A DNA stretch of 64,000 nt, from the NCBI GenBank assembly GCA_903813345.2, contig CAIIXF020000005.1:22077375-22141374 (forward strand), written 5' to 3'. The position numbers were made by a program, and so were the translations under genes. Below are positions 4,441-55,940 of this stretch, piece after piece. The notes under the pieces are model-generated. The model searched no databases. It was not told where the DNA came from and saw only the letters and a program-made list of their open reading frames with translations. Positions within the stretch are counted from its first letter, which is position 1, and each line of letters opens with the position of its first letter. This stretch comes from Owenia fusiformis. Its lineage: Eukaryota > Annelida > Polychaeta > Sabellida > Oweniidae.

Positions 4441-4828
4441 CCCAATCCCCCATTTCTGAAGTCAGATTTGAGCTTCTGTGAACTTGTCGACACGCTCAGT
4501 GATCGTACAAAATAGATGGAGGGGGGAGTAGGCGATTTCTGCAAGAAAACTCAACATATTTGGAAGATTTATTTTTTCAAGAGAAAATTTATGACTGAAT
4601 TGCCAAATGAGTAGGTGCAGTGCATGGCAAAATATGTTAGGGTCTTCTAGTATTTTTTTGAACTGATACACTTCTAACATATGAGATCCTTTAAAAAAGG
4701 CGCATCATCACCAACGTACAAAAGTCAATGTTTTTGCTATAAATCAGGCAACAATGGTCTACACAACCTGTAATAAATTGGTATAAGGGACGTTATTATC
4801 ACAACACAAATGACATTGCTCACTTTTA

Positions 4829-5163
4829 AAGTTAGTTTCCATTCATAATAAAGTTAGTTTCCATTCATTATACAAAAAATAATTGAAATAAATAACTTGG
4901 AGGAGTTATATGTCTTTACGATGGAACAAATTCAAAAGTTCTTTTGTATTTGAAAAAACTAAACTCAGTACACCAGTAAAAAACTGGATATTATATCTCT
5001 GGAGAATGAAAAATGGGAAAATTTGGAGTTATATGAATGAATTCAAGTAGCATTTCTTATCATGCTTATATACACGTTATTCCCCCCTCCATCCACTCCC
5101 CCTCCATCCAATATTAATTTATTTCGATTATTTTTTGTATAACGCATGGAAACTAACTTTAAA
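4829..5163. mobile_element. Small fold-back with TTAGTTTCCATTCATTATAC arms
   Basis: TAAAGTTAGTTTCCATTCAT at 4851 returns inverted at 5118-5163 as ATGCATGGAAACTAACTTTA-like sequence, with arms of about 45 bp. The left tip is doubled (TTAGTTTCCATTCAT occurs twice from 4830). Confidence 0.6.
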
Positions 5164-7862: not shown

Positions 7863-10393
7863 CACTAGGGCAAAGCATTTGTACTGAAAGGAGCGTTTTC
7901 AGTACAAATAAAAATGTACTAGTTTTGTTTCAGTACAAATTTAAGTATATTTTTGTACTGAAAAATGCACTGATTTTTTTCAGTACATTTTTCAGTACAA
8001 ATTCATGTACTGAAAAATATACTGAATTTTAAGTACAAATTTAAGTATAAAGGACGATTCTCGGTTTGGAGAACAGTCTCCTGGGCTAATAATTTTTTCA
8101 TGAAAAATATAGAAATATTACCCAAATTAAACTATGAATATTCAAAAGAGGACATTTAAATCTACAAGATGTAAAAATAACAAATTGGTCTGAAGCAGGG
8201 ATAATGCTCAATTAGACTGATTCAATAAAATACAAGTCTTGATTTTGGGGAAAGAAGTTCATCAGTGTACTGCGCTAATATTTTTTTGCGAAAAATCTAA
8301 AAATATTACCCAAATTAAATTATGACTATTCAAAAGAAGACATTCAAATCTATATTATGTAAAAAAAATCAAATTTGTCCGAAACAGGGATAATGCTCAT
8401 TTAGATTGAAGAACTTCGTTCTCCAAACCGAGAATCGTCCTTTGTACTGAAAAATGTACTGAATTTTAAGGACAAATTTAAGTGCAAAAATATACTGAAA
8501 AATGCACTGAAAATTTAAGGATAAATTTAAGTACAAATATATACTGAAAAATGTACTGAAATTTAAGTGCAAAAGTCAGTATAAAAATGTACTGAAAAAT
8601 ATACTGAAATTTAAGGATAATTTTAAGTATAAATATATGCAATAAGAAATATTTGTGCCCAATAATGGAAATAAGAGAAAATGTAAATGTAAGGCATACT
8701 TTATAGTATTATATTTATTTACATTGTTCTAATAATTACATTGTACATAGACTGTCATATCATATAACAACAGTGTAGCAATCTTGTTGGTTTATGATAG
8801 CATTTTGATAGTAAGTCATTAGAAATAAATGCAGAGATGTTTTCTTATTAAATTCCAGTCAAAAGGAAAATGTATGTTGCATTTTTAAAACATTTGAAAT
8901 AATTTTGCAATTCTCCAATTCTGCAAATTCAGACACTAGGCAATACTCCATCTTGTAATCATAATTATAAAGTAAGGAAGATGTGTCTGTAAGGAAGAAA
9001 TTCTGTGATCAGAATAATTTGTTTATTGATGGAGAAAATGCAATCAGATATTATTACAGGATGCGTCTTAAATAATTAAATCCAAAAACATAACTTATTA
9101 AAAGGAAAACACTTGATTACAGTAAACCTAGCCTCTCCAGTTTGATTAGAGTCTGCTTTAAAGGATGTGTCTAAAGAAACTTTATTAATCCATTAACAAA
9201 ACAAAATATTTTGACAAGGCAAAACAAACCTGATTAAAGAGAGACTCTTTTAAGTTTGGTTAAAGTCTGCTGTAAAGGAAGCATCCAAAATAATTTCATT
9301 CAAGTTAACTCAGTGCACCCTTGCTAAAATCCTCATTTTCTCAGAAGAACTCAGTTTGATCGAATAACAACAGGTAGATTCATATTCCGATATTATTGCT
9401 AAAATCCATTTTCAGTTTAATAGGCAATATATGTATCTTCTTTGATATGAATGTTTGTGAAGTTTGAAGTAGCTTGCATGTCAACAAAATCTTTTTTACC
9501 TAAAACATGTCAACTTTAAGACTGAAATTTAACCGATTACTAGAATTTCTCTTTACTTTCCCAATAACTAATTTTTTAAATGACTTGTTTATAATATTAC
9601 AAACCTGCAGTAACAATTCAAGAAAATCGAATATCAATAAAATAATACAATTTCTTTTTAGCCCGATCAAACCTATCAAATATAATGCATATATACAGTA
9701 AGGGTTATGTACTGGGAGGTTTTGGATACCCATATTTCCTGAGGGATAAACCCTTTATTTAAAACTGATCGTACATAACATGTGTATTCCATACCTTTTC
9801 AGGTTTCTACAGGTAGATACATTCTACCTTATTAAGTTCTAAAATTCAAAAATATTAAAGGTACACATTTTCTCAGTCTTAAAAATAAGTTTTTCATGAG
9901 ATTTTCACTCATATTGCTTGAGCAAATTAATTAATTGATATCAAAATTAAAATATATAACATGAACATTTGTTCGAGTATAGCAAAATCCATGGTATAGA
10001 TGTCAAAGTCAGGAAGATGTCGTAATTCAAAATCTAAGTATATTTTTCAGTATAAATTTACACTTAAATATGCCCTTAAATTTCAGTATATTTTTCAGTA
10101 CATATTTGCACTTAAAATCACACTTAAATTTCAGTGTATTTTTAAGTACATATTTGCACTTAAAATCACACTTAAAATTCAGTATATTTTTCAGTATAAA
10201 TATATACTGAAAAATGTACTTAAAATTTCAGTACATTTTTCAGTACATATTTATACTGAAATTTGCACTGAAACTTTAAGTATATTTTTCAGTACATATT
10301 TATACTGAAAAATATACTTAAAAATTCAGTACATTTTTCAGTACATATTTGTACTGATAACGCTCCTTTCAGTACAAATGCTATGCCCTAGTG
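7863..10393. mobile_element. AGTAC-armed TIR element, copy 1 (2.5 kb)
   Basis: The termini are CACTAGGGCAAAGCATTTGT and its inverse CAAATGCTATGCCCTAGTG, each followed inward by 350-700 bp of alternating CAGTACAAAT / TTTAAGTATA / TTTTTCAGTA units on opposite strands. There is no transposase. Short ORFs rich in Phe, Ile and Tyr (8369-8572, 10000-10308) are read-through of the arms, not genes. A second copy is at 42656-44579. Confidence 0.85.
8049..8443. mobile_element. 395-bp MITE inserted in the left arm of the AGTAC element
   Basis: AAAGGACGATTCTCGGTTTG at 8049 and its exact inverse ending at 8443 delimit it. Copy 2 of the AGTAC element lacks it at the equivalent position, giving an empty site. 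Inside, two direct repeats of about 120 bp share ATTACCCAAATTAAA and TCAAAAGAGGACAT-like segments. Confidence 0.8.
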
Positions 10394-10432
10394 TTTAGTA
10401 TGGAGGACCAGCTTTCAAAAAGGCCGTCATTT

Positions 10433-10733
10433 TTCAAGATGGCTGCCATGTGCTTCTTTAAGATCTATATTTCTAGCTTTATTAATGTCCTATATAATTT
10501 TTTACATTTAAAACATATTGCTATTACAGTTTTACATTCATTGGAGTTGTACCTAAATTAAATGAATGAGCGGCCATTTTGAAAATAAATCAGCTTTCAA
10601 GCAGAACTTCTACTCCCATAAGGTATATGTTTACAAAATATGAAAAAATTGGGCCAACCCTATTTGAGTTATTGCCCAGAAGGATGGAGGTGTTCCCTCT
10701 ATCCCTGCCAACTTCGTCCGATGGGTAAAAAAT
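10433..10733 (+). repeat. GGAC-tailed family R1, diverged copy
   Basis: It shows the R1 order (CATGTGCTTCTTTAAGATCT, TTTTACATTTAAAACATATT, AGCGGCCATTTTGAAAAT, CCCATAAGGTATATG, TTATTGCCCAGAAGG) but has almost lost the microsatellite. It ends CTTCGTCCGATGGGTAA. Confidence 0.75.
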
Positions 10734-12739: not shown

Positions 12740-13324
12740 TTAATGCCTTTTTTGTATAAGATCTTCAGGTTTGCTAACAATTAACAATGCCCGTCTATAC
12801 AATGTTTTAACTACCCCTCTCTTTGTGTCGATGGAATGACTAGAATTATAATGTAAATATTGGTTTGTGTGTGTAGGTTTCCTATATACTTTAAATGTGA
12901 TTGATCCATCCTGCTCAATGTGTGTTAAACAGTCTAAAAATGGAAGGTCCCCATTCTTGCATACCTCTTTCGTAAATTTTATACCTTCATTTTGTCTGTT
13001 TAAATGTTCAGTAAAAGACTCCACAGCATCTTTAGCAATAACTGCATATGTGTCATCGACAAAACGGCACCAGAGTTTCAGAGGAATGTCTGCTGAGGCC
13101 AAGGCCTTTTCTTCAAAGTCTTCCATGAATATATTGGAAATGATAGGTGACAACGGAGACCCCATAGCACAACCTGACTTTTGTCCGTAATAATCATCAT
13201 TCCATAGAAAGTATGTTGTGTTCAAACAGAATTTTAATAACTCTGCTATATTCTTAGGAGATAGCCGTGTTCTATCTTTTAAAAAGCTAGTTGGATGATT
13301 AGCGAAACGTCGAAAATAAAACAT
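12740..13324 (-). pseudogene. Penelope-like reverse transcriptase fragment
   Basis: This 194-codon open stretch carries DRTRLSPKNI, the palm motif GCAMGSPLSP at residues 51-60 and catalytic FVDD at 88-91. LPFLDCLTHI and YRKPTHTNQYLHYNSSHS follow, all typical of the Penelope RT. The first 16 codons (MFYFRRFANHPTSFLK) come from the inverted terminal repeat rather than from an RT N-terminus, so the fingers region is missing. Downstream the frame is lost at about 12740 and resumes as a diverged linker. It is a dead copy. Confidence 0.88.
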
Positions 13325-14155: not shown

Positions 14156-15192
14156 CAGGGTGGTCCAAAAAAATGGGACACTCGTATTTCAAAAATAAAT
14201 AATGGTTTTCTTGATGAAAACATGTCATATTATATACCAGTGGATAGGGAATTTACTTATCTTTAATTTGGTTTATCATAAGTTCAAATTTATTATAATG
14301 TCTGTCAACCAGCGTCCATTATATAAATGACGTAATTTTATTTTCAAAACGGGTTCTCCAAAACTTGCAAACTTTTTTTACACAAACAGACGTTCAATAT
14401 GTCCATCATTTTGATCAATTATAGCTCTCAATTTTGGCCTTAACTGGTCAAAAACATCATTGATATTCTGTTGAGACAATGAATTCCACTTCTCAACAAG
14501 TCTATCCTTAATAAGGGACTGAGTAGATGTAAGGGTTTCATGATAAACCAATTCTTTTTGTTCTCCCAATACGTGGTAGTCGCAGACGTTGACATCGCAT
14601 TATCCAATTATGTTGTTTTAAGACCATCCTGGTTACCTCGAATCATTACATTTTCCACCAAGATGGGGCTCCAAGCAATAGATCTCACAAGAGTGTCAAA
14701 TGTTTCAAAGAAAATGTGCCTAGATTCATCTCCCTAATCACTGCCTCCCCCAGATCATACGATCAACCAATGTCTGCGACTACCATGTATCGGGAGAACA
14801 AACAGAATTGGTTTATCATGAACCCCTTACATCTACTCAGTCCCTTATTAAGGATAGACTTGTTGAGAAGTGAAATTCATTGTCTTTAACAGCATATCAA
14901 TGATGCTATTGGCCAGTGTAGGCCAAAATTGAGGGGTACAATTGATCAAAATGGTGGACATATTGAACATCTGTTTATGTAAATAAAATTGACAATAAAA
15001 CTTGCTTTTGCAATTTTTGGAAAACCTGTCATTTATATTATGGACACTGGTTGACAGACATTATAAAAAATTTGAACTTATGATATACCAAATTAAAGAT
15101 AAGTAAATTCCCTATCCATTGGTATATAATATGACATGTTTTCATCAGAAAAATCAATATTTATTTTTGAAATACGAGTGTCCCATTTTTTT
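14156..15192. mobile_element. Mariner-derived fold-back of about 1 kb
   Basis: A TA dinucleotide precedes CAGGGTGGTCCAAAAAAATG. The roughly 420-bp left arm (14156-14575) returns inverted at 14785-15192, up to CGAGTGTCCCATTTTTTT, where the last roughly 11 bp of the right tip are missing. Both arms encode a transposase C-terminal end on outward-facing strands: the left arm (14378-14569, minus) reads WNSLSQQNINDVFDQLRP and ends HIERLF, as in Tc1/mariner enzymes. The centre (14650-14720) has an IDLTRV remnant near where the last catalytic block (PDLTP) would be. Confidence 0.75.
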
Positions 15193-19380: not shown

Positions 19381-20330
19381 GACAACAGCAACGCCAAAGC
19401 ATAGCAAATCCCATCGAACATGGTTGGCATTTTTACAAGCAAAATATATAGCAAAAATGGCTGCTATTTTGCAAAATGGCCAGCTTCTACCAAAAGTGTC
19501 ATTAGACAGTGTGCCATGCTTATAGTATTCACATACCAAATATGAACAAAATCGCTCCACTACTTTTCTAATTTTAGTTAAATACGTTAAAATGGTGGCC
19601 ATTTTTTAAAATGGCCACCTTCTACCAAAAGTGTCATTAGACAGTGTGCCATGCTTATAGTATTCACATACCAAATATGAACAAAATCGCTCCACTACTT
19701 TTCTAATTTTAGTTAAATACGTTAAAATGGTGGCCATTTTTTAAAATGGCCACCTTCTACCAAAAGTGTCATTAGACAGTGTGCCATGCTTATAGTATTC
19801 ACATTCCAAATATGAACAAAATCGCTCCACTACTTTTGGAGCAATAGTAAAATACGTTAAAATGGAAGCCATTTTTTAAAAATGGCCGCCTTCTACCAAA
19901 AGTGTCATTTGATAGTGCCATGCTTATAGTATTCACATACCAAATATGAAAAAATCGCTCCACAACTTTTCGAGTTACATCAAAAATCGTAAAATAACGA
20001 GTAAAGGCCACCATTTTTCAAGATGGCTGCCATGTGCTTTAATATCTACAGTTCTACTTTTATTAATGTCCTATATAATTTTTTTACATTCAAAACATTG
20101 CAATTACAGTTTTACATATTGCACCTAAATTACTGTAAGATCGGAACTAAAATGGCTGCCATTTTTAAATGAGCAGCCATTTTGAAAATCAGTTTTCGAG
20201 CAAAACTTCTACACCCATAAGGTATATGTGCATGTACAAAATATGAGCAAAATTGGGCCAATGGTATTTGAGTTATTGCCCGGATGGACGAGTGGATTGA
20301 TGGACGTACGTACGTACAGACGGACGGACG
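19381..20330 (+). repeat. GGAC-tailed family R1 with tandem units of about 115 bp
   Basis: It starts AACAGCAACGCCAAAGCATA and GCAAATCCCATCGAACA, then has four units of ACCAAAAGTGTCATTAGACA ... CGCTCCACTACTTTT ... AAAATGGTGGCCATTTTTTA. The R1 body follows, with TTATTGCCCGGATGG and a GTAC/GGAC run. Its terminal CTTCGTTCGATGGGATAA is displaced to 21097-21137 by the insertion at 20331-21096. Confidence 0.85.
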
Positions 20331-24661: not shown

Positions 24662-25452
24662 GTAATTCCTAAAATCTGTATATAATTTTCTGGATATATT
24701 TTCCATTTAATTTCACCAGGATTGTCCTTTCGATTTTTCCACTTACCTAGCCTAGCCACAAAGCTTCGGTCTTTTTAACATTTAATTTTAAACTCGACAC
24801 ATCATAAAAAGCTTTAAAAACATGTATTGTATTATGAAAAGATTGATCATCATGTAAAAATAAAGAGGTATCATCTGCAAATTGCAGTATCTTTGTTTGA
24901 TCGGCACACCCTTGAATTTTAATACCTTTTATGTTTTTTTCTTGTCGAACCTTACAAGACAGTAGTTCACAAGCTATTATAAATGTCAGTGGAGATAATG
25001 GGCAGCCCTGCCGAATGCCACGGTGCAGATTAATGTCTCCAATTACCCATCCATTATTTAAAATGTGGTTATGGCCATTTTTATTAATAACATCAACCCA
25101 TTTGATAAATGATGGTCCAAAACCAAAGTACTCTAATGAATGCAACATGAATTCCTTAGATATCGAATCATACGCTTTTTCATAATCTATTGTTAGCATT
25201 ATCCCTTGCAAATTATTACTGTCAATATATACAATCAAATCATCCACCGCCCTTAAAATTGTAGCAGCACTTCTACCTTTAATGTAACCACTCTGGTCTT
25301 CATGAATAATTGTTTTAATTACAGTTTTCAATCTATTAGCTAATATTTTCGTTGCAATCTTATAATCTACATTGGTCAGTGTCAAAGGACGCCAATTCTT
25401 TAACTCATCTCGAGGTAAGTTTTTTTGGGGAATTAATACAATTAAGCCAGTT
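24662..25452 (-). pseudogene. LINE reverse transcriptase fragment
   Basis: From the truncated end it reads GLIVLIPQKNLPRDELKNWR, then PLTLTNVDYKIATKILANRL. Counting from the first Met at 25385, the metal-binding motif IDYEKAYD is at residues 66-73, GIRQGCPLSP at 123-132 and catalytic FADD at 169-172. This order is standard for LINE reverse transcriptases, and the NVDYKI(A/L)(T/S)K(I/V)L..RL block fits the L1/Tx1 group. The open frame ends near KKTEALWLG, where alignment to the C-terminal part requires passing a stop and the MITE. Confidence 0.9.
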
Positions 25453-30537: not shown

Positions 30538-31385
30538 AATCGTTCCACCACTTTTCGTGTTATAGTAAAATACGTGAAAATGGCGGCCATTTTTCAAAAT
30601 GGCCACCTTCTACCAAAAGTGTTGTTAGACAGTGTGCCAAGTGCCATGCTTATATTATTCCCATACCAAATATGAACAAAATCGCTCCACTAGTCTACTT
30701 TTTGAGTTATAGTAAAATACGTTAAAATGGCGGCCATTTTTCAAAATGGCCGCCTTCTACCAAAAGTGTCATTACACAGTGTGCCATGCTTATAGTATTC
30801 ACAAACAAAATATGAACAAAATCGCTCTACTACTTTTTGAGTTATAGTAAAATAGGTTAAAATGGCGGCCATTTTTCAAAATGGCAGCCATTTTTCAAAA
30901 TGGCGCCCATTTTTTAAAATGGGCGCTTCCTACCTAAAGTGTCATTAGACAGAGAGCCATGCTTATAGTATTCACATACCAAATATGAACAAAACCTCTC
31001 TACTACTTCTTGAGTTACAGCAAAAATCGTAAAATAACGAATAAAGGCTGCCATTTTTCAAGATGGTCGGCATGTGCTTCTTTAATATCTACATTTCTAG
31101 CTTTATCAATGTCCTATATAATTTTTTTACATTTAAAACATATTGCTATTACAGTTTTACATATTGCACCTAAATTACTGTAAAATCGGCACTAAAATGG
31201 CCGCCATTTTTAAATGAGTGGCCATTTTGAAAATCAGCTTTCGAGCAGAACTTCTACCTCCATAGGGTATATGTGTACAAAATATGAACAAAATCGGGTC
31301 AACGTTATTTGACTTATTGCCCGGACGGACAGACGGACGAAGGCGTTCCCTATTTCCCTCCGAACTTCTTTCTATGGGATAATTA
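30538..31385 (+). repeat. GGAC-tailed family R1 copy with four 115-bp units
   Basis: Units of CCAAAAGTGTNATTANACAG ... ATATGAACAAAATCGCTC ... AAAATGGCGGCCATTTTTCA are followed by the R1 body, a short GGACGGACAGACGGACG run and CTTCTTTCTATGGGATAA. Confidence 0.82.
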
Positions 31386-33089: not shown

Positions 33090-33791
33090 TAACCAGAACA
33101 ACGGCAACGCCAAAGCGTAGCGAATCCCATCAAACAGAAATAGCTGACATTTTTACAAACGAATAGCAAATATCATAAAACAACACACCAGAAAGGCCAC
33201 CATTTTCAAAATGGTTGCTCACTAGCCAAGTTGTCATCAGAAGAAATACTATGCTTTTAAGTAGCCACCCCTAAAATTTTTGAAAAATCGCACACATACT
33301 TGTAAAATAACACACATAAAAATGGTGGCCATTTTTCAAAATGGCAGACTACTCCCCAAAGTTTTATTAGACAATGTGCCATGCTTAAAGTATTCACATT
33401 TCAAATATGAACAAAATCGCTCCACTACTTTTTGAGTTATAGTAAAATGCGTTAAAATGGCGGCCATTTTTCAAAATGGCCACGTTCTACCAAAAGTGTC
33501 ATTAGAAATGGACACTGGGCCATGCTTATAGTATTCACATACCAAATATGAACAAAATTGCTCCACTACTTTTCGAGTTATAGTAAAATACGTTAAAATG
33601 GCGGCCATTTTTCAAAATTTTTTTCAAAATGGCCGCCTTCTACCAAAAGTATCATTAGACAGTGTGCCATGCTTAAAGTATTCACATACCAAATATGAAC
33701 AAAATCGCTCCACTATTTTTTGAGTTACAACAAAAAGCGTAAAATGATGAGTAAAGGCCGCCATTTTTCAAGATGGCTGCCATGTGCCTCT
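33090..33791 (+). repeat. GGAC-tailed family R1, 5' half
   Basis: It begins AACGGCAACGCCAAAGCGTA and GCGAATCCCATCAAACAG, has four 115-bp units, and runs to CAAGATGGCTGCCATGTGCC before the TTAA where the X-Y-Y-X block is inserted. The 3' half resumes at 36320. Confidence 0.85.
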
Positions 33792-36319
33792 TTAAGGTAT
33801 GAGTACCGTAATCCAACACCAAATTCGAAAATTCATAACAATACTTTGCACATATGGCGTTCGTGACCAACTATAAAACGCTTACCCCCCATAGTGTTAT
33901 ATATCAAAATGTACCTGTTCATATAGGGGTTCGATTGATCTACATCAAATTATAGGGAGTCAGGTTACTTTTTGAGATATCAGCGCCATTTATTGTGACT
34001 CGCGTTTGCTACCACTTCCTCAATTCTGATGTGATGGGCAAACGCGTAGTAAACATGCTCACGTCGGAACTATTTTTGACCTACATCGCTATTTTCGTAA
34101 TTCAAATGAAAGTTGAACTCCTCCTCTTTATTTTGATACCAAATAGTGGCATACTAGGTACCCTAGAAGCCAACTATGGCGTTATTTAGAACAATACCAC
34201 GAGTTTTTAAATGGACTATATAGGGGTCATACCTTTTGGCGGATGGATATGGAACCTCATACCTTAATGTGTTATGACATCACACTGATTTTTGTCTCTG
34301 CAACTTTTTTTGGCAGAAAATATCATTTCTAGTTCAAAAATGCATAAAAACGTCGGAACTGGCTGAATATGTGAAAAATTTATCCATTTAGGCTAGAAAG
34401 GGTTAATTTGCCCTACCCCAAATACGTCTAAATACAAATATGCTAGTCTAACTTTGCCACTGTGACGTCACAAATCTAACCTGACTTTCTCTGAGTTTAT
34501 TGAAGAAAATGATACGTCTGATAAACAGCTTTCATTCCCTATATGGCACACCTTCTACTAAGAGTTGCATCATTGACTAAATCTAAGACAAAGGCCCTGT
34601 GTCCCGAGGATTTTGACTGAAATTTGGCCATTTTCGTCCAAATCTAACTAAATTGCAGTTTCCCTCACCCCTGTATTTTGAAATAAATATTGCTACAATG
34701 TAGCAATTTGAAAATCACACATGCTTACTGTTTCTGTCGACCTGACACGTGTATCTAGCCTGTAAAAATGAAAAATCGCTACATTGTAGCAATTTCACTG
34801 AGATATGGGCCCCGAAAATCATGTAATTTTAGCAAAGAATGAAGAAATAACCTGCAATTTTGACGGAATTTCAGAGCGCTTTCTTTCATTCCAGACCCTC
34901 CACGGGCCTCTTATGACCATTCTTATACTCACAGAATGGTTGAAAGTGATTTCAAATCATTGTTTGCCCTACGCAGAATGAAAAAATCGATTCTGTTCTC
35001 AAATTCTGCTAGAATATTGGTCTCTGGCCAACTAGCAGACAATTTTAGGCCTCATATTAATGTGTTATGACATCACACTGATTTTTGTCTCTGCAACTTT
35101 TTTTGGCAGAAAATATCATTTCTAGTTCAAAAATGCATAAAAACGTCGGAACTGGCTGAATATGTGAAAAATTTATCCATTTAGGCTAGAAAGGGTTAAT
35201 TTGCCCTACCCCAAATACGTCTAAATATGCTAGTCTAACTTTGCCACTGTGACGTCACAAATCTAACCTGACTTTCTCTGAGTTTATTGAAGAAAATGAT
35301 ACGTCTGATAAACAGCTTTCATTCCCTATATGGCACACCTTCTACTAAGAGTTGCATCATTGACTAAATCTAAGACAAAGGCCCTGTGTCCCGAGGATTT
35401 TGACTGAAATTTGGCCATTTTCGTCCAAATCTAACTAAATTGCAGTTTCCCTCACACCTGTATTTTGAAATAAATATTGCTACAATGTAGCAATTTGAAA
35501 ATCACACATGCTTACTGTTTCTGTCGACCTGACACGTGTATCTAGCCTGTAAAAATGAAAAATCGCTACATTGTAGCAATTTCACTGAGATATGGGCCCC
35601 GAAAATCATGTAATTTTAGCAAAGAATGAAGAAATAACCTGCAATTTTGACGGAATTTCAGAGCGCTTTCTTTCATTCCAGACCCTCCACGGGCCTCTTA
35701 TGACCATTCTTATACTCACAGAATGGTTGAAAGTGATTTCAAATCATTGTTTGCCCTACGCAGAATGAAAAAATCGATTCTGTTCTCAAATTCTGCTAGA
35801 ATATTGGTCTCTGGCCAACTAGCAGACAATTTTAGGCCTCATATTAAGGTATGAGTACCGTAATCCAACACCAAATTCGAAAATTCATAACAATACTTTG
35901 CACATATGGCGTTCGTGACCAACTATAAAACGCTTACCCCCCATAGTGTTATATATCAAAATGTACCTGTTCATATAGGGGTTCGATTGATCTACATCAA
36001 ATTATAGGGAGTCAGGTTACTTTTTGAGATATCAGCGCCATTTATTGTGACTCGCGTTTGCTACCACTTCCTCAATTCTGATGTGATGGGCAAACGCGTA
36101 GTAAACATGCTCATGTCGGAACTATTTTTGACCTACATCGCTATTTTCGTAATTCAAATGAAAGTTGAACTCCTCCTCTTTATTTTGATACCAAATAGTG
36201 GCATACTAGGTACCCTAGAAGCCAACTATGGCGTTATTTAGAACAATACCACGAGTTTTTAAATGGACTATATAGGGGTCATACCTTTTGGCGGATGGAT
36301 ATGGAACCTCATACCTTAA
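33792..36319 (+). mobile_element. X-Y-Y-X block inserted at TTAA
   Basis: X (33796-34267) and X' (35848-36319), each 472 bp including the final TTAA, are nearly identical direct repeats. Between them lie Y (34268-35060, 793 bp) and Y' (35061-35847, 787 bp), also nearly identical, Y' lacking 6 bp. TTAA occurs at all five borders. X has short TIRs GGTATGAG / CTCATACC next to TTAA, which points to a piggyBac-type MITE. The interrupted R1 repeat gives the empty site with a single TTAA. No long ORF is present. Short ORFs (33995-34189 and its twin 36047-36241) show no known motif. Confidence 0.85.
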
Positions 36320-36690
36320 TATCTACATTTGTAGCATTATTAATATCCTTTATAATTTTTTTACATTTACAACATATTGCTATTACAGTTTTACATATTG
36401 CACCTAAATTACTGTAAAATCGGCACTAAAATGGCTGCCATTTTAAAATGAGCGGCCATTTTCAAAATCGGCTTTCGAGCAGAACTTCTACCCCCATAGG
36501 GTATATGTGTACAAAATATGAACAAAATCGGGCCAACGGTATTTGAGTTATTGCCCGGACGGACAGACGGATGGATGGACGTATGTACGTACGGACGGAC
36601 GGACGGATGGACGGACGGACGGACGTACGTATGGACGGACGGATGGAGGCGTTCCCTATATCCCTCCGAACTTCGTTCGATGGGATAATT
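36320..36690 (+). repeat. GGAC-tailed family R1, 3' half
   Basis: It resumes TATCTACATTTGTAGCATTA and runs through the R1 body, a 90-bp GGAC/GTAC microsatellite (36557-36645) and CTTCGTTCGATGGGATAA. Confidence 0.88.
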
Positions 36691-36704
36691 ATAAAAATAG
36701 GACC

Positions 36705-39916: not shown

Positions 39917-40586
39917 ATGGCCATGGCAGACGAACGATTTGTGAACGTTGACGAAGATATTATATTATCATTACTTGAAAACAAAGACAGCAAAAACACA
40001 AAGAGAAATATACGATTGACTATGACTATACTCGACGAATATGCGGTATTCAGTAAGGTGGCAAAAATAGAAAGTTTAAAGAGAGAAATAGATGTTGACA
40101 ATTTTCTGCAAAAATTTTATGTCGGCGTTAGGAGAAAGGATGGGGAAATGTATAAAACAAAGACTTTCCAAATGTTGAAATGGGGAATAGGAAGATATTT
40201 AATGGATAAGAAGAAAATGGACATAAATGGGGAACATTTTAGAGGATCGAATGGTGTGTTCAAAGCGATGATTGTTGAATTACAGCGACATGGAAAGGGC
40301 AAGGTAACCCATAAGCCTGTCCTAGAGCCAGAAGATTTACGCAAAATCTACGAATGCTTGGATTTAAATACTCCAAAGGGGTTGCTGTATAAGGTCTTTA
40401 TAGACATCATGATACATTTGTGCAGGAGGGGTCGTGAGAACCTTAGGTCAATGTCCAAAAAAACATTCCATGTCTGTTCTGATGGGACTGGGGCAAAGTT
40501 TGTGGAGCAAGTCACTGGAGAGTTGCAGAAAAACCACAGGGATGGTTCTTCAAGTTTGGCTGAAGGGAGAATGTATGAAATTAAAG
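39917..40586 (+). CDS. Crypton recombinase exon 1 (N-terminal domain and first catalytic Arg)
   Basis: The exon encodes residues 1-223, starting MAMADERFVNVDEDIILSLL. An ATG six bases downstream is an alternative start, and the degenerate copy at 60050 aligns its ATG with MADERFV. Residues 1-125 look like a core-binding helical domain. VFIDIMIHLCRRGRENLRSM at 160-179 holds the first catalytic Arg (R171, RG-x-E pattern). The exon ends AAAG/GTGAGT in phase 1. The fold belongs to the DUF3504-like tyrosine recombinases found in Cryptons and in several domesticated animal genes. The enzyme would cut and join element ends via a covalent Tyr-DNA link. No stop or frameshift is seen. Confidence 0.82.
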
Positions 40587-40814
40587 GTGAGTCTAGTTGT
40601 ACATTATACAACTACATAGAGTTATTGTATACAATACATCATATATGACTGTAGTCCATGAAGTGATGTATTGAAGTAAATTCCAAATATGGCCCTACAT
40701 GTAACTGAGATGTGTCAGCCTAGGCCCCCCTAATACTGAGTGTACATGTACATATATACCTATCATAGGTGCATTCATTTATTCACTATACAATGTATGT
40801 AATATATCTTTCAG

Positions 40815-42655: not shown

Positions 42656-44579
42656 CACTAGGGCAGAGCATTTGTACTGAAAGGAGCGTTTTCAGTACAA
42701 ATATGTACTGAAAAATGTACTAGTTTTGTTTCAGTACAAATTTAAGTATATTTTTGTATTGAAAAATGCACTGAATTTTTTCAGTATATTTTTCAGTACA
42801 AATTCATGTACTGAAAAATATACTGAATTTTAAGTACAAATTTAAGTATAAATATGTACTGAAAAATGTATTGAATTTTAAGGACAAATTTAAGTGCAAA
42901 AATATACTGAAAAATGCAATGAAAATTTAAGGATAAATTTAAGTACAAATATATACTGAAAAATGTACTGAAATTTAAGTGCAAAAGTCAGTATAAAAAT
43001 GTACTGAAAAATATACTGAAATTTACGGATAATTTTAAGTATGAATATATGCAATGAGAAATATTTGTGCCCAATAATGGAAATAAGAGAAAACGTAAAT
43101 GTAAGGCATACTTTATAAACTCTAAATCACTCAAAAAGTTCTTAGAATGGTGAAAAAGTGCATGATTTTAAAAGAATTTTTAGCTGGGGGGGGGGGGTTC
43201 GCTTGGACCCCTGAAACCCCCCCCCACAGGAATGCTATTACATTATGAAATTATTTTGGATGCTTCCTTTACAGCAGCCTTTAACCAAACTTAAAAGAGT
43301 CTCTCTGTAATCAGGTTTGTTTTGCCTTGTCAAAATATTTTGTTTTGTAAGTTGACTAATAAAGTTTCTTTAGACACATCCTTTAAAGCAGACTCTAATC
43401 AAACTGGAGAGGCTAGGTTTACTGTAATTAAGTGATTTATTAAAATGGCCTAAATCACTCAAAAAGTTCTTAGAATGGTGAACAAATGCATGATTTTAAA
43501 AGAATTTTTTGCCGGGGGGGGGGGGTTCGCTTGGACCCCTGAACCCCCCCCCCCCCAGGAATGCTATTACATTATGAAATTATTTTGGATGCTTCCTTTA
43601 CAGCAGACTTTAACCAAACTTAAAAGAGTCTCTCTGTAATCAGGTTTGTTTTGCCTTGTCAAAATATTTTGTTTTGTTAATGGATTAATAAAGTTTCTTT
43701 AGACACATCCTTTAAAGCAGACTCTAATCAAACTGGAGAGGCTAGGTTTACTGTAATCAAGTGTTTTCCTTTTAATAAGTTATGTTTTTGGATTTAATTA
43801 TTTAAGACACATCCTGTAATAATATCTGATTGCATTTTCTCCATCAATAAATTTCTTTTTAGCCTGATCAAACCTATCAAATATAATGCATATATAAGAG
43901 TTATGTACTGGGAGGTTTTAGATGCCCATATTTCCTGAGGGATAAACCCTTTATTTAAAACTGATCGTACATAACATGTGTATTACATACCTTTTGAGGT
44001 TTCAAGATACATTCTACCTTATTAAGTTCTAGAATTCAAAAACATTAAAGGTACACATTTTCTCAGTCTTAAAAATAAGTTTTTCATGAGATTTTCACTC
44101 ATATTGCTTGAGCAAATTAATAAATTGATATCAAAATTAAAATATATAACATGGACATTCAACCTCATTTGTTCGAGTATAGCAAAATCCATGGTATAGA
44201 TGTCAAAGTCAGGAAGATGTTGTAATTCAAAATCTAAGTATATTTTCAGTATAAATTTACACTTAAATATGCCCTTAAATTTCAGTATATTTTTCAGTAC
44301 ATATTTGCACTTAAAATCACACTTAAATTTCAGTATATTTTTAAGTACATATTTGCACTTAAAATTCAGTATATTTTTCAGTATAAATATATACTGAAAA
44401 TGTACTTAAAATTTCAGTACATTTTTCAGAACATATTTATACTGAAATTTGCACTGAAATTTTAAGTATATTTTTCAGTACATATTTATATTGAAAAATA
44501 TACTTAAAAATTCAGTACATTTTTCAGTATATATTTGTACTGAAAACGCTCCTTTCAGTACAAATGCTCTGCCCTAGTG
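42656..44579. mobile_element. AGTAC-armed TIR element, copy 2 (1.9 kb)
   Basis: The tips CACTAGGGCAGAGCATTTGT and ACAAATGCTCTGCCCTAGTG, and both AGTAC-rich arms, match copy 1 (7863-10393). The centre differs: a roughly 330-bp segment is tandemly doubled (43121-43451 and 43452-43790, each with a G-run and a C-run around TTCGCTTGGACCCCTGAA), and the segment equivalent to 9030-9320 lies in the opposite orientation. No transposase is present. Confidence 0.85.
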
Positions 44580-55076: not shown

Positions 55077-55940
55077 CCAGAACAACGGCAACACCAAAGC
55101 GTAGCGAATCCCATCAAACAGCCATGGCTGGCATATTTACAAACAAAGTATATAGCAAAAATGGCAGCCATTTTTCATGGCCACCTTCTACCATTAGACA
55201 GTGACATTAGACAGTGTGCCACGCTTATAGTATTCACATACCAAATATGAACAATATCACTCCAGTACTTTTCGAGTTATAGTAAAATACGTTAAAATGG
55301 CAGCCATTTTTCAAAATGGCCACATTCTACCAATAGTGTCATTAGACAGTGTGCTATGCTTATAGTATTCACATACCAAATATGAACAAAATCGCTCCAC
55401 TACTTTTTGAGTTATAGTAAAATACGTTAAAATGGCGGCCATTTTGAAAAATGGATGCCTTCTACCAAAAGTGTTATTAGACAGTGTGCCATGCTTATAG
55501 TATTCAGATACCAAATATGAACAAAATCGCTCAGCTACTTTTCGAGTTATAGTAAAATACGTTAGATAACGAGTAAAGGCCGCCATTTTGAAAAATGGCG
55601 GCCATGTGCTTCTTTAATAATTTCTAGCTTTATTAATGTCCTATATAATTTTTTTACATTTAAAACATATTGCTATTACAGTTTTACATATTGCACCTAA
55701 ATTACTGTAAAATCGGCACTTAAATGGCCGCCATTTTTAAATGAGCGGCCATTTTGAAAATCAGCTTTCGAGCAGAACTTCCACCCCCATAGGGTATATG
55801 TGTACAAAATATGAACAAAATCGGGCTAACGGTACTTGAGTTATTGCCCGGATGGACGGACAGACGGACGGACGTACGTATGGACGGACGGATGGAGGCG
55901 TTCCCTATATCCCTCCGAACTTTGTTCGATGGAATAATAA
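55077..55940 (+). repeat. GGAC-tailed family R1, fullest copy
   Basis: CCAGAACAACGGCAACACCA and GCGTAGCGAATCCCATCAAA start it. Four 115-bp units, the R1 body, a GGAC/GTAC run (55853-55892) and CTTTGTTCGATGGAATAA follow. ATCCCATC at the head is the inverse of the terminal GATGG(G/A)AT, so it behaves as a unit with short inverted ends. Confidence 0.87.

Follow-up and report, generated by a model that had tools for sequence, protein, structure and literature searches.

A probable KolobokP-type composite transposon with a tandem internal region in a single TTAA of an Owenia fusiformis repeat

How two pairs of near-identical direct repeats came to stand in a row, with TTAA at every junction, is the question raised by a block found in a 64,000-nucleotide stretch of Owenia fusiformis DNA (the window). 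The block occupies positions 33792-36319 and reads TTAA-X-TTAA-Y-TTAA-Y'-TTAA-X'-TTAA, with all parts in direct orientation (Table 1, where X' and Y' are listed as X2 and Y2). An initial annotation made from the letters had described this order, and coordinates and alignment confirmed it together with the shared orientation and the TTAA at all five borders; the lengths given there (472, 793, and 787 bp) are consistent with ours, as each counts one TTAA. The block is best read, and probably so, as a single inserted DNA transposon, nonautonomous and composite-like, of the KolobokP type, in which X is the long terminal direct repeat (LTDR) and Y the internal region (INT), in the dimer-derived arrangement LTDR-(INT)2-LTDR.

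Table 1. Coordinates of the block, of the repeat that it interrupts (R1), and of the empty copies of that repeat in the window
Feature	Position	Strand	Evidence or remark
Host repeat (R1), left part, interrupted by block	33300..33791	+	blastn to 4 other copies
Left TTAA target duplication	33792..33795	.	Single TTAA in 4 empty host-repeat copies
X1, left LTDR, 468 bp, tips GGTATGAG..CTCATACC	33796..34263	+	
X1-Y1 border TTAA	34264..34267	.	
Y1, INT copy 1, 789 bp, non-coding	34268..35056	+	
Y1-Y2 (INT-INT) junction, single TTAA	35057..35060	.	
Y2, INT copy 2, 783 bp	35061..35843	+	
Y2-X2 border TTAA	35844..35847	.	
X2, right LTDR, 468 bp	35848..36315	+	1 difference vs X1
Right TTAA target duplication	36316..36319	.	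Host-repeat empty copies
Host repeat (R1), right part	36320..36700	+	blastn to 4 other copies
Y end motifs TATGA, TATGAG	34268-34281, 35044-35056, same in Y2		Shifted versions of X's TTAA-GG-TATGAG
Empty host-repeat copy	10419-10684		Single TTAA at 10458
Empty host-repeat copy	19589-20330		Single TTAA at 20039
Empty host-repeat copy	30577-31337		Single TTAA at 31082
Empty host-repeat copy	55206-55896		Single TTAA at 55614

The longest stop-to-stop open reading frame overlapping the block encodes 77 amino acids; from this length the block was taken as non-coding, and Y was ruled out as a gene. The repeats of LTR retrotransposons have TG..CA ends. X lacks such ends and has a TTAA on either side of it, which rules out an element of that class. 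Besides the five borders, TTAA occurs four times within the block (two in the X copies and two in the Y copies), and its frequency in the window is approximately once per 109 bp. No further copies of X or Y were identified elsewhere in the window (blastn, E values up to 1e-3). Two smaller sequence features were observed: a perfect palindrome, ATTGCTACAATGTAGCAAT, lies within Y at 34689-34707 and 35476-35494, followed 86 bp later by a near copy, and the 11-mer ACGTCGGAACT is common to X1 (34064) and Y1 (34350), its C being T in X2.

When the sequences flanking the block were joined at one TTAA, they aligned without a break to the host repeat at four other places in the window, with 81 to 88% identity. 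As these four empty copies each carry a single TTAA, the insertion used one TTAA as its target and duplicated it; the insertion into the single TTAA of R1 that had been proposed is thereby upheld by the empty form at four other sites. It also follows from the unbroken empty sites that the inserted DNA (the 2524 bp lying between the outer TTAAs, together with one TTAA) either came in as a single unit or expanded at this site from one. A single C/T difference in 468 positions separates X1 from X2, and Y1 is distinguished from Y2 by one substitution plus a 6-bp indel located between short AAAT repeats. Divergence within the block is therefore 2 substitutions in 1251 compared sites, or 0.16% (95% Poisson range, 0.02 to 0.58%), a figure that gene conversion between copies could also lower, and the X and Y pairs are similarly young. 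By comparison, the host repeat is far older, and the two substitutions in 1251 sites support the earlier view of a recent event.

The tips of X form an inverted repeat (GGTATGAG) that is perfect over 8 bp and, in a longer gapped alignment, matches in 17 of 21 columns, and X starts with GG and finishes with CC, i.e., it has 5'-RR..YY-3' ends. Across the whole window, 4 of 4860 pairs of TTAA sites lying 200 to 1000 bp apart had tips that repeat perfectly over 8 bp or more; two of the four are the X copies, and the remaining two are at 4826-5162 and 14508-14851. Y had been described as lacking matching tips. It has no proper inverted repeat, as stated, but its ends do carry shifted TATGAG and TATGA motifs: reading from TTAA into the element, both ends of X show GG-TATGAG, the right end of Y has TATGAG (offset 0), and the left end of Y has TGTGT-TATGA (offset 5). 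Outside the block, TATGAG was found 4 times and TATGA 11 times at 0 to 5 bases from TTAA, in about 1150 TTAA directions. The presence of an X-like motif at both ends of Y is suggestive, and it may be a coincidence, being a short match spotted after the fact.

Elements of the KolobokP lineage consist of an INT between two LTDRs, each with short inverted tips and with 5'-RR and YY-3' ends (Kojima and Bao 2022, PMC9587614). LTDR lengths lie near 450 or 660 bp, with 473 and 480 bp among the examples, the terminal inverted repeats of oyster LTDRs are 11 to 18 bp and perfect or imperfect, and the outer target duplication is 3 to 5 bp, according to the same source. The forms described there are LTDR-INT-LTDR, solo LTDRs, (LTDR-INT)n-LTDR, and LTDR-(INT)n-LTDR, the last being non-zero in 3 of the 19 families of its Table 2. 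In KolobokP-1_MeMe, INT begins and ends with TATA, of which one is kept at INT-INT junctions; such junctions were explained by LTDR excision or by excision of a monomer from a multimer (PMC9587614). Autonomous members encode a Kolobok DDD/E transposase and a His-Me finger nuclease, and nonautonomous oyster families range from 1738 to 3261 bp (PMC9587614).

Five features of this anatomy are found in the block: direct LTDRs (468 bp, against approximately 450 bp), inverted tips belonging to each LTDR, RR..YY ends, a short outer duplication within 3 to 5 bp, and an INT-INT junction that keeps one tetranucleotide, here TTAA in place of TATA. A non-coding Y fits with the existence of nonautonomous families, and a monomeric X-Y-X would here measure 468+4+789+4+468 = 1733 bp, just under the oyster range. 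The block may depart from KolobokP in its choice of target: KolobokP is described as being without strong target specificity (PMC9587614), whereas all five borders here are TTAA. This pattern is seen in one insertion, which lies at TTAA and has TTAA at its inner borders too, and it would count against KolobokP if general. The block was likened to KolobokP by anatomy and published description. It has no coding capacity and contains neither a transposase nor a nuclease, so that architecture and tips are the basis of its assignment to the lineage. On this comparison, the X-Y-Y-X shape looks like a clear instance of an arrangement known from shellfish, and not like a novel class of element.

The unit proposed in the initial annotation, with X flanking a tandem Y and outer X tips as its bounds, is thus the reading that we retain and that fits the published KolobokP lineage, whereas its piggyBac component was not sustained. 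Termini of the form 5'-RR/YY-3' separate Kolobok from piggyBac (Kojima and Bao 2022, PMC9587614), and the GG...CC ends of X follow this rule, so that the classification of X as a piggyBac-type MITE is unsupported and, judged by its tips, probably wrong. The tips of piggyBac elements are typically CCC or CC[C/T]T, and also CACTA (PMC7351741, PMC10813416, PMC2872659); of the piggyBac features, the TTAA target duplication is present in the block and CCC or CC[C/T]T tips are absent (the X tip is GGTATGAG), and X was rejected as a typical piggyBac MITE for its GG tips. Described piggyBac elements and MITEs share with the block the TTAA target, seamless excision, and, in the coral CMITE, MITE tandem arrays, and they differ from it in their tips; no X-Y-Y-X arrangement with long direct terminal repeats was found in the available text of these descriptions (PMC7351741, PMC10813416, PMC2872659). 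The Kolobok elements and T2-MITEs of Xenopus likewise have a TTAA target and 5'-RR tips but are ordinary inverted-repeat elements with AG-type tips and are not composite (PMC6004289).

Other origins of the block were weighed against the KolobokP reading. If X were a piggyBac-type MITE with atypical tips, two copies could by chance have flanked an ordinary or doubled Y stretch and moved with it as an opportunistic composite, from which a middle X later left seamlessly. TTAA targeting and seamless excision are together known only of piggyBac, according to the available text of a structural paper on piggyBac, and the TTAA at all five borders agrees with this origin; we nevertheless regard it as unlikely, given X tips that begin with GG instead of CCC, CC[C/T]T, or CACTA and given that a 468-bp direct terminal repeat and an INT-INT junction are already features of KolobokP. 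It is very unlikely that X and Y are separate TTAA elements that landed successively in border TTAAs, with Y having only subterminal inverted repeats. Such a history would require near-identical copies to have landed precisely in border TTAAs three more times, always in direct orientation, and the resemblance that speaks for it, between the ends of the TTAA-bordered Y (TATGAG at offset 0 and TATGA at offset 5) and the TTAA-GG-TATGAG of X, is short and was noticed after the fact, even if Wuneng and Microuli provide a parallel in which a 7-bp motif is common to the tip repeat of a MITE and the subterminal repeat of the other TTAA element (PMC2872659). Finally, assemblies are well known to go wrong at near-identical repeats, and the initial annotation had named an assembly duplication as an alternative, but the doubling of a simple X-Y-X locus through the merging of two alleles or repeat copies is very improbable, since the copies differ (by one base in X and by one base plus 6 bp in Y), an overlap merge of X-Y-X with itself would give X-Y-X-Y-X and not the loss of X exactly at TTAA, and the same form has been published for other KolobokP loci (PMC9587614).

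Under the KolobokP reading, a transposase supplied from elsewhere would have moved the unit into TTAA by way of the outermost X tips. An X-Y-X monomer may have become X-Y-X-Y-X through unequal exchange between X copies or through capture of an X-Y circle, and the middle X could then have been excised with the loss of one TTAA, leaving Y-TTAA-Y. Unequal crossover, circles, and nuclease-induced unequal crossover are the sources of multimers discussed for KolobokP (PMC9587614), the circles corresponding to the circular intermediate that the initial annotation had offered as an alternative, and unequal exchange in X followed by excision of the middle X appears the most likely route here. As a one-step alternative we infer the cross-joining of two sister-chromatid excision gaps, one lacking the right X and the other the left X, a route that was not found in the available text of PMC9587614. 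The sequence fits all of these routes alike and cannot tell them apart, nor whether they occurred before or after insertion. Excision of KolobokP LTDRs usually costs 1 to 5 bp on one side (PMC9587614), and the loss of exactly one TTAA fits both this and the seamless excision of piggyBac. Two points pull against KolobokP-type excision, namely, that seamless excision at TTAA is known only of piggyBac and that KolobokP has no strong target preference.

The borders of X also led us to consider whether the LTDR ends might be cut sites for an I-PpoI-like nuclease such as that encoded by autonomous KolobokP, a proposal that we rate as highly improbable. X reads TTAAGGTA inward at both ends, and two X ends around one TTAA would form a perfect 20-bp palindrome, CTCATACCTTAAGGTATGAG, the core of which (CTTAAGGTA) coincides with a 9-base run in the I-PpoI site CTCTCTTAAGGTAGC (PMC6294500), a match spotted after the fact. 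The nucleases of KolobokP are I-PpoI-like, I-PpoI leaves TTAA 3' overhangs, and the KolobokP nuclease was suggested to cut at the TIR termini of a circle (PMC9587614). If a middle X were cut at its two borders, matching TTAA ends would result, so that X would be dropped and the two Y copies joined with one TTAA; the shifted TATGAG and TATGA of Y would be weak half-sites. What this would add to the suggestion of the KolobokP authors is the sequence match and the removal of a middle LTDR by border cuts, and, if true, the nuclease would prune and rejoin the composite directly, beyond provoking unequal crossover. Two results speak against the proposal. A search of the window with the I-PpoI consensus, allowing up to 3 mismatches, gave 0 sites. 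TTAAGGTA matched 7 times in the window, 4 of the 7 being X tips, compared with a mean of 3.5 in shuffled sequence (8 of 100 shuffles reached 7), and its enrichment is only mild.

This locus adds a very young case of LTDR-(INT)2-LTDR in which the empty site is clean and every border is TTAA, so that LTDR loss can be followed at single-base resolution. Should TTAA prove general for the X/Y family, this would be a KolobokP-type element that has retained the strict target choice seen in other Koloboks. Because its copies are nearly identical, the locus is a promising place to look for alleles of the form X-Y-X, X-Y-X-Y-X, or solo X; these would distinguish unequal crossover from excision or circle capture, a choice left undecided by the KolobokP authors in the available text of PMC9587614.

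Searches were also extended beyond the block. X1 plus Y1 had no match among phages, and exact patterns of the X tip, Y tip, X-Y border, and Y palindrome each gave 0 matches in viral contigs. The 19-base X tip matched genome contigs once, in a Tannerellaceae MAG, which was taken as chance, as the best X match there beyond those 19 bases was 14 bases (E value of 1.3). None of 4227 Rfam families was found in the window.

Several other features of the window were recorded. The TTAA pair at 4826-5162 borders a 329-bp stretch with a 13-bp inverted repeat starting with AG, possibly another Kolobok-like MITE, and that at 14508-14851 lies inside 14263-15096 as part of nested TTAA-bordered inverted repeats, the inner pair of which matches over at least 20 bp. 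Reverse transcriptase fragments on the minus strand (Pfam RVT_1) at 12740-13324 (E value of 2.8e-07) and 24747-25385 (E value of 1.4e-28) indicate that retroelements are nearby. A 243-amino-acid open reading frame on the plus strand (39917-40648) had no Pfam match at an E value of 0.001; its product may be a Crypton-type recombinase domain. Two tandem copies of a 329-bp unit, with 95% matches, occupy 43122-43767, and a 48-bp unit with many TACTGAAAAATGTACTG-like words forms arrays at 8445-8638, 10029-10357, 42690-43048, and 44230-44545.
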